From Hyphomicrobiales bacterium (GTDB lineage: Bacteria > Pseudomonadota > Alphaproteobacteria > Rhizobiales > Beijerinckiaceae): a stretch of 37,549 bases of DNA. The notes beneath the pieces are model-generated. The model was given only the letters and a program-made list of their open reading frames with translations, made no database searches and had not been told where the DNA came from. The stretch is taken from contig JAFBAK010000357.1 in assembly GCA_019247795.1 (NCBI GenBank), forward strand, positions 1-37,549, given 5' to 3'. Made by a program: the position numbers and the translations under genes. Below are positions 10,030-12,350 of this stretch, piece after piece. Position 1 is the first letter of the stretch. Every line of letters starts with the position of its first letter.

Positions 10030-10695
10030 TCAGCGCCTGACGATGATCGCACTGGGCGAGCGCCGCTCTTCCCAGCCTCGACGTTCCAGCTCGGGCGTCT
10101 CGCATTCCTCTTCAGGATAGCCGATGCATAAATAGCCGATCAGCTTCCAGGCCGGGGGCGTGTCGAGGATCGAGGCGACGCGGGAAGGGTCGAGGATCGA
10201 CACCCAGCCGACGCCGATACCCTCGGCCCGCGCCGCGAGCCAGAGCGTGTGAATCGCGATCACGCCTGAGTATTCGATCATCTCCGGCATGGTGTGGCGA
10301 CCGAGACCATGCCCGTGCGTCGTCGCCCTGTCGGTGAACACGGCGACCTGCGTGGGGGCATCCACGAGACCGGCGAGCTTGAGGCTTGCATAAAGTCCGG
10401 CTTTCTCGGCCTTTTGCTCACGTAGCGCCTGCGCGTTGCAAGCTTCGAAGCATTCGCGGATGGCTACCCTCCTGACATCATCGTCGACGATGACGAAGCG
10501 CCACGGCTGGCTCAGGCCGACCGAAGGGGCGAGGCAGGCCGCATCGAGCAGGCGCTGCAACGCCCCGCTCGGAAGCGGAGATCGCCGAAAGTGGCGCACA
10601 TCGCGCCGCCATCTGAAGAGTTCGTGAAGCTTCGCGCGGAAGCTCGGATCGAAGTCGGGCGCGATATTTCCTGAGCGTTGGAGCTCGGCTCTCAT
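10030..10695 (-). CDS. bluB: 5,6-dimethylbenzimidazole synthase BluB (nitroreductase-like)
   Basis: [14 protein letters not shown]...[24 protein letters not shown]...[15 protein letters not shown]...[22 protein letters not shown]. Confidence 0.92.
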
Positions 10696-11312
10696 CGGGC
10701 GAGCTCCCTCAGCCCGAGCTTGATGAGCTGCGACGCCGCCGGGTTCTCACCCGCCGCCTTGAGCGCGACCGCGACCGCGGCGCTCGCCTGGGGTGGCGCG
10801 TAGCCGAGATTGGTGAGGGCGGAGATCGCGTCGGCGACAGGCTGCGGCAAGCCGGCCCTGGCCTCGACCGCGCCCGCGAGCCTCGCGACGAGCGGATCGA
10901 TCGGCGCGAAAGCGGGCGCCTTGTCCTTGAGCTCTGTCACGAGACGCTCGGCGAGCCTGCCGCCCACGCCGGTCGCGCGCTGCAGCTGCGCCTTGTCGCG
11001 ACTGGCGACCGCGCTCGCAAGCTCTCCCGGGTCGAGCGTCGACAAGATGGCGAGCGCGACCTTCGCGCCGACACCTTGAACCGTCTGCAGAAGTCGAAAC
11101 CATTCCCGCTCCGCCTCCTCGCGAAAGCCGAAGAGGCGGATTGCGTCCTCGCGCACTTGCGTCTCGATCAAGAGAGAAACCTCGTCCCCGGCCCGGGGCA
11201 GGGCCTGGAGGCTGCGCGATGAGCATTGGACGAGGTAGCCGACGCCGCTCACGTCGAGGATGACGAAGTCCTCCCCGTAACTATCGACGACGCCTCTGAG
11301 CTTGCCGATCAT
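10692..11312 (-). CDS. ruvA: Holliday junction branch migration protein RuvA
   Basis: [32 protein letters not shown]...[26 protein letters not shown]...[17 protein letters not shown]. Start set at MIGKLRG rather than the ORF-track 11354. Confidence 0.96.
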
Positions 11313-11439
11313 ATCAAAGGGTTCCCGCGGCGCCGTCGAGTCGCACTCATCCATACCGGATTTCGCGGCCGAAAAGCGAGTTTGCGGCTCAGATTGTTGG
11401 GGCGCTGGACATTATATGGCACATTCACCCATGAGTGGG

Positions 11440-11820
11440 ATGAAAGAGCCAGCCAGAAAAATCTCCGTCGCGTTTTACCGAACTGCGTCTGGCGAAGAGG
11501 TTGTCCGGGACTGGCAGAAGATCATGAGAAGGAGGAGACCTCCTGGCGCCGAAGGGCTTTCGACACTCGATGAGTGGCTCGAGGAAGATGGCACGCGCGA
11601 AATCTTTCAGGATGTGGCAATAAAAGAAGTTCTGGCCTGGCAGATTTTGGAAGCCATGAAGGCCGAGGGGCTTTCACGCGAGCGTATGGCCGAACGCATG
11701 CATACGAGCCGCTCCCAAATTGGCCGCTTGCTAGATCCCAACGACGGCAACGTAACCCTTTCCACGCTACAGCGAGCGGCCGAACTTCTCGGACGTAAAG
11801 TCAGCGTTGAACTGGTTTAA
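11440..11820 (+). CDS. Fused remnant of a Gp49/HigB-like toxin N-terminus and an XRE-family antitoxin (HigA-like); alternative starts 11416, 11431, or 11524 for the antitoxin alone
   Basis: MKEPARKISVAFYRTASGEEVVRDWQK resembles the first ~25 aa of Gp49/HigB-like toxins. It is followed directly by GLSTLDEWLEEDGTREIFQDVAIKEVLAWQILEAMKAEGLSRERMAERMHTSRSQIGRLLDPNDGNVTLSTLQRAAELLGRKVSVELV, which resembles the partner antitoxin. Confidence 0.75.
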   Translation: MKEPARKISVAFYRTASGEEVVRDWQKIMRRRRPPGAEGLSTLDEWLEEDGTREIFQDVAIKEVLAWQILEAMKAEGLSRERMAERMHTSRSQIGRLLDPNDGNVTLSTLQRAAELLGRKVSVELV

Positions 11821-11861: not shown

Positions 11862-12350
11862 TCACGCACCGCCACGTGCTCGATGGTGGGCATGGGTAAT
11901 GGCGACCGCAAGCGCGTCAGCCGCGTCGGCCGCGGGCGGGTCGGCCTTGGGGAGGAGGACGCGGATCATGGCTTCGACCTGATGCTTCTCGGCATGTCCG
12001 ACGCCGACGACCGTCTTCTTGATGAGGTTCGCCGCGTATTCGGCGACCGGCAGGCCGAGCAGCGCCGGGACGAGAAGCGCGACGCCGCGGGCTTGGCCGA
12101 GCTTCAGCGTCGCCCGCGCATCCTTGCTCACGAACGTCTCCTCGACCGCAGCTTCGCGTGGGGCGTGCTCGGCGATGATCGCGCTCAAGCCCTCGTGCAA
12201 TTGCAGCAGCCTTTCGGCGAGCGAACGCTTCTCGCTGCTCGTGACGACTCCGCAAGCGATAAAGGAAAGCCGCGTCCCCTCCACGGCGATGACGCCCCAG
12301 CCGGTTCGCCGCAAGCCCGGATCGAGGCCGATCAGGCGCAGATCGCGCAG
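11862..12350 (-). CDS. ruvC: Crossover junction endodeoxyribonuclease RuvC; likely CTG start (12350 or 12341)
   Basis: Minus-strand reading upstream of the ORF-track TTG (12314) gives [25 protein letters not shown], the conserved RuvC N-terminus with catalytic Asp. The only start-like codons in frame before the stop are CTGs (12350, 12341, 12335). Confidence 0.88.

Follow-up and report, generated by a model that had tools for sequence, protein, structure and literature searches.

A Tad-Ata-like toxin-antitoxin module between ruvC and ruvA that has probably been disarmed by deletion of its toxin

Tad-Ata toxin-antitoxin modules, described from Paracoccus aminophilus pAMI2, combine a COG4679/DUF891/Gp49 toxin with a COG5606 Xre antitoxin (PMC2701414). 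In Gp49 modules the toxin gene precedes the antitoxin gene, and in one such module the antitoxin is known to repress its own promoter (PMC5906591). Antitoxins also abound without a toxin, as orphans: one Klebsiella survey counted 2253 of them (PMC7192599), and solo genes make up over half of the genes in the largest families (PMC2701414). Some of these orphans, which retain an intact antitoxin, arose by loss of the toxin in place (PMC7192599; PMC7354431; PMC2701414). Gp49 and HTH parts may also be fused in mono-gene modules, with an N-terminal Gp49 part and a C-terminal HTH antitoxin in one ORF (PMC11980606). The only solved sequence relative of the intact toxin of the family examined here is HigBA of Streptococcus pneumoniae (PDB 6af3/6af4, E 1.9e-6).

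We analysed a locus between ruvC and ruvA in a 37,549-nucleotide stretch of DNA (the window) of the source genome, G000. Labels starting with G, L and C denote genomes, antitoxin/toxin loci and contigs of G000, respectively. The features of the locus are as follows.

10692..11312, minus strand: ruvA (Pfam RuvA_N, HHH_5, RuvA_C)
11406..11436, plus strand: remnant of the module promoter/operator (GGACATTATATGGCACATTCACCCATGAGT), from a 30-mer match and alignment with relatives
11416..11820, plus strand: ORF, open throughout, 134 aa from ATG 11416
11440..11820, plus strand: probable real product, a 126-aa chimera of toxin head and whole antitoxin, from homology and the AlphaFold model
11440..11514, plus strand: toxin head, the first 25 codons (start codon included) of a Gp49/Tad/HigB-like toxin (MKEPARKISVAFYRTASGEEVVRDW), from alignments
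11514..11524, plus strand: deletion junction, from DNA alignment with seven relatives
11524..11820, plus strand: complete Xre-type antitoxin (Ata/HigA-like) that has an HTH domain and an ATG of its own; stop at 11818-11820
11862..12314, minus strand: ruvC (Pfam RuvC); the listed ORF is probably short of a few N-terminal residues

The window copy resembles Tad-Ata in its toxin-first order with an Xre antitoxin second, in its homologous toxin head, in its full homologous antitoxin and in its upstream region; an Xre/HTH antitoxin downstream of a toxin start is shared with HigBA as well. It differs in lacking the toxin catalytic domain, the toxin stop and the antitoxin ribosome-binding site, and in forming one chimeric ORF. 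By origin it groups with the Tad-Ata modules, but the defining toxin is absent; as it stands now, it amounts to an orphan antitoxin preceded by a toxin leader. As in other orphans, a complete antitoxin stands with no functional toxin gene alongside, and the head and upstream region are still in place as the trace of a former toxin. Unlike them, the window copy has its antitoxin fused to the start and first 25 residues of the former toxin, a footprint that was not found in the literature searched. The fused gp49-HTH modules share the one-ORF layout but contain the whole toxin domain, whereas the window chimera has only the segment before the Gp49 domain and cannot be a toxin. The S. pneumoniae HigBA differs in being a complete two-gene module; its antitoxin chain (6af3_F) was a weak structural match to the chimera.

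A sequence-only reading had proposed that a single open plus-strand ORF at 11416-11820 joins about the first 25 residues of a Gp49/HigB-like toxin to the whole partner antitoxin. The ORF is present, and comparison with homologues bears out both halves. Residues 1-25 of the head (MKEPARKISVAFYRTASGEEVVRDW) paired without gaps with residues 1-25 of the intact L055 toxin (score 91), while shuffled sequences scored 40 at most (0/2000 as good), ruling out a chance likeness. Since this one-to-one alignment is counted from ATG 11440, we take that codon, rather than ATG 11416, as the real start. Against the L057 toxin (residues 7-25), the identity of the head was 79% (E 2e-5 within the set of loci). 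Neither Pfam nor NCBIfam detected the head alone, because the Gp49 model begins at toxin residue 24. The antitoxin half carries HTH_3 above the Pfam cut-off, aligns with the antitoxins of intact pairs and is 74% and 67% identical to those of L050 and L049. AlphaFold modelled the HTH part confidently (block means 84-97 over residues 41-120), with residues 1-14 of the toxin head below pLDDT 50 and a weak helix at 18-30. A fold search returned only generic matches to solved HTH antitoxins or regulators, with E above 0.01.

The deletion was measured by DNA alignment with seven relatives (L049, L050, L051, L052, L055, L057 and L058), in which the toxin lies upstream in another frame and the antitoxin ATG closely follows the toxin stop. 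The full L057 toxin has 115 residues, with Gp49 (PF05973) at residues 24-111 (E 5.5e-21); the L050 toxin itself has a frame break in the middle. In the chimera, Pfam found no Gp49 toxin domain, and toxin residues 26-115 are missing, 90 residues where a loss of about 70-90 had been predicted. The Pfam model starts at residue 24, so the surviving head precedes the catalytic domain, which has itself been lost. Toxin and antitoxin start codons are 358-361 nt apart in L057/L055 versus 84 nt in the window. The net loss of ~274-277 nt comprises the toxin from codon 26 to its end, the toxin stop and the antitoxin ribosome-binding site, and it merged two originally different frames into one. The alignment places the junction at 11514..11524, opposite a gap of ~275 bp, with breakpoints ambiguous within a few bases since even the closest relatives share only 60-74% identity in the antitoxin. 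These results, together with parallel cases in relatives (below), support deletion of the toxin with the antitoxin kept. The description of the deletion as in-frame is right for the product, which is read in one frame, but not for the event, which did not remove a multiple of three within one frame.

Upstream of the head, the promoter/operator of the original module is still recognisable (GGACATTATATGGCACA). Its 30-mer matched the upstream regions of L050, L051, L052 and L057 (p 0.002 or less, 500 randomised sequences) and of L058 (p 0.036); matches to L049 and L055 were not significant. A palindrome best seen in L050 (TAAATGGTACATGTACCATATA) is half preserved in the window copy. A promoter scan found no sigma-70 consensus, and the scan, Rfam and PADLOC returned nothing specific. 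With the operator palindrome partly degraded and no such consensus, the gene may be weakly expressed.

The ruvC-ruvA gap in the same-genus genomes G001 and G003 is roughly 130-180 bp and contains no cassette, so that the window cassette is most simply read, from these sequence comparisons, as an insertion specific to this lineage, in antisense orientation to ruvC and ruvA. A function of the locus in DNA repair found no support and was rejected, because the cassette is lineage-specific and lies on the strand opposite ruvC and ruvA.

We consider it likely that the locus is a disarmed Tad-Ata type II module, which was inserted, lost its toxin by deletion and left an antitoxin that survives as a toxin-free autorepressor, perhaps with an anti-addiction role. 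A complete Tad-Ata-like module (toxin first, Xre antitoxin second) would have entered the ruvC-ruvA gap in this lineage, and a later deletion of ~275 bp would have removed the toxin catalytic domain and the antitoxin ribosome-binding site while sparing the promoter/operator, the first 25 toxin codons including the start, and the entire antitoxin. Translation of the antitoxin would now begin at the toxin's old start, giving a 126-residue protein, or weakly at its own ATG. DNA binding has most likely been retained, with the chimera acting as a toxin-free autorepressor that may also neutralise related toxins on incoming elements. When both genes of a toxin-antitoxin module are lost, the leftover stable toxin is unopposed; when the toxin alone is lost, the cell is not exposed. 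Toxin-only loss would thus be the viable exit from addiction.

To place the deletion among its relatives, antitoxin homologues were collected both from related genomes, at the level of family, order and class, and from public ones (79 full-length antitoxins). A near-full-length toxin match lay upstream in 65 of the 79 loci and a full toxin was missing from 14, where presence means coverage by homology, and small frame breaks as in L050 may lie among the 65. On the antitoxin tree the pattern of toxin loss needed 13 changes, at least 9 of them forced by well-supported branches. Because the search started from antitoxins, their constant survival among these loci is in part an ascertainment effect. 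The toxin start was kept in 5 of the 14 toxin-less loci: the window locus (25 toxin residues, in frame with the antitoxin), a second G000 locus on C8 (below), L005 in G017 (11 toxin residues, MINRSKKLSAR, also in frame with the antitoxin), L081 in G449 (~23 toxin residues, with a stop overlapping the antitoxin ATG) and L094 in G098 (~8 toxin codons). L094 occupies the same site as L092 of G148 (flanks 90-92% identical). The pair is complete in L092, while L094 has had its toxin excised and retains the operator, the start of the toxin and the antitoxin; the two antitoxins differ by 5 synonymous and 0 nonsynonymous changes. At another site, G031 and G272 carry orthologous toxin-free antitoxins (L015/L103, flanks 82-86% identical) that show purifying selection (dS 0.585, dN 0.038, dN/dS 0.065) and would have been constrained without a toxin, provided that the loss predates their split. 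We conclude that toxin-only loss is a recurrent, already known phenomenon, of which the window locus is a clear example. It is doubtful, and in our judgement improbable, that toxin-only excision leaving the promoter and toxin start on the antitoxin is a recurrent, selected route that turns the family into a class of toxin-free regulators or of anti-addiction proteins, the toxin leader being retained because it drives translation of the antitoxin. The window fossil is unusually legible, with operator, toxin start, breakpoint and intact antitoxin all readable. With C8 and the loci of G017, G449 and G098 it forms a set of natural toxin deletions for asking why antitoxins outlast toxins; the set includes two close loci of which only one has the toxin (G148/G098) and toxin-free orthologues under purifying selection (G031/G272).

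Decay may have followed disarming, the surviving ORF being a pseudogene that drifts to loss and has no current function; this outcome is possible, though we think it rather unlikely. It would fit the partly lost operator palindrome and the lost antitoxin Shine-Dalgarno sequence, and two other loci of G000 point the same way. At C8:14403-14687 (L002) lies another antitoxin of this family, whose toxin is reduced to a frameshifted head of ~28 residues by deletion of its core; the antitoxin's HTH region carries changes (RRQLDR to RQQLDC) absent from its two orthologues, which suggests that some such copies are decaying. The sister species G002 and G003 have an intact pair at the orthologous site, and the dN/dS of the C8 antitoxin is 0.05-0.10, a low value that may predate toxin loss. 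A less closely related Gp49/HigB-like pair on C155 (L108, about 1420-2140) has an open HTH antitoxin adjoining a toxin with an internal stop and a frame break from an apparent small duplication, the third broken toxin in G000. The window antitoxin itself is fully open, however, and in a leave-one-out profile test it ranked at the 45th percentile of 65 paired antitoxins, showing no decay. The reading frame is also continuous across the junction, and the L015/L103 orthologues are constrained. No close orthologue of the window copy was found, and no intact orthologue at the ruvC-ruvA site; dS to all relatives ranged from 1.4 to infinite, with synonymous sites saturated or nearly so, making dN/dS uninformative. 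Elsewhere in G000, C292:1926-2190 (L129, L130) may hold a further broken toxin, a ParE-family match that is split into two overlapping parts and contains an internal stop.

Alternatively, the solo antitoxin may be kept as protection against related toxins arriving on plasmids or other elements, an explanation that we hold only tentatively. Chromosomal CcdA is a documented case of an anti-addiction antitoxin, and the same role has been proposed for orphans (PMC7354431; PMC7192599), related antitoxins are present on alphaproteobacterial plasmids, and the L015/L103 comparison points to constraint after toxin loss in the family. The closest plasmid antitoxin, however, is only 62% identical, which makes cross-neutralisation uncertain, and the concept was questioned by a reviewer in PMC2701414. 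Within G000, the genome search suggested by the sequence-only reading found no close intact partner toxin: its two Gp49 matches, the broken pair on C155 and an intact pair on C32, are both distant.

An assembly or sequencing artefact would be a natural concern in a draft genome of 431 contigs with 3.8% contamination, yet it is very improbable for a deletion whose frame continues across the junction and which has independent parallels in other genomes; the flanking ruvC, 87-92% identical to those of same-genus genomes, indicates that the contig is native. Hardly credible at all is the reading that the ORF belongs to a normal single-gene family or encodes a functional gp49-HTH fusion of toxin and antitoxin: 69 full-length fusions have been reported (PMC11980606), but the window ORF lacks the Gp49 domain, 65 of the 79 genome loci are ordinary two-gene pairs, and no homologue in genomes, plasmids (0/37 records cover 80% of the query), phages or viral contigs covers the whole query. 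The same single-ORF architecture in many genomes, or a lack of likeness between the first 30 residues and Gp49-like toxins, would have spoken against a deletion; neither was observed, and the deletion reading stands.

The surroundings of the disarmed module gave three further observations. In G002 the place of ruvA beside ruvC (L020, upstream of ruvC) is taken by what looks like a gene for an ABC-transporter ATPase, so ruvC and ruvA do not always adjoin within the genus. In the window, a nitroreductase-family gene, possibly BluB-like, lies directly after ruvA at 10030-10695 on the minus strand. In G000, ruvB is located elsewhere, on contig C74.
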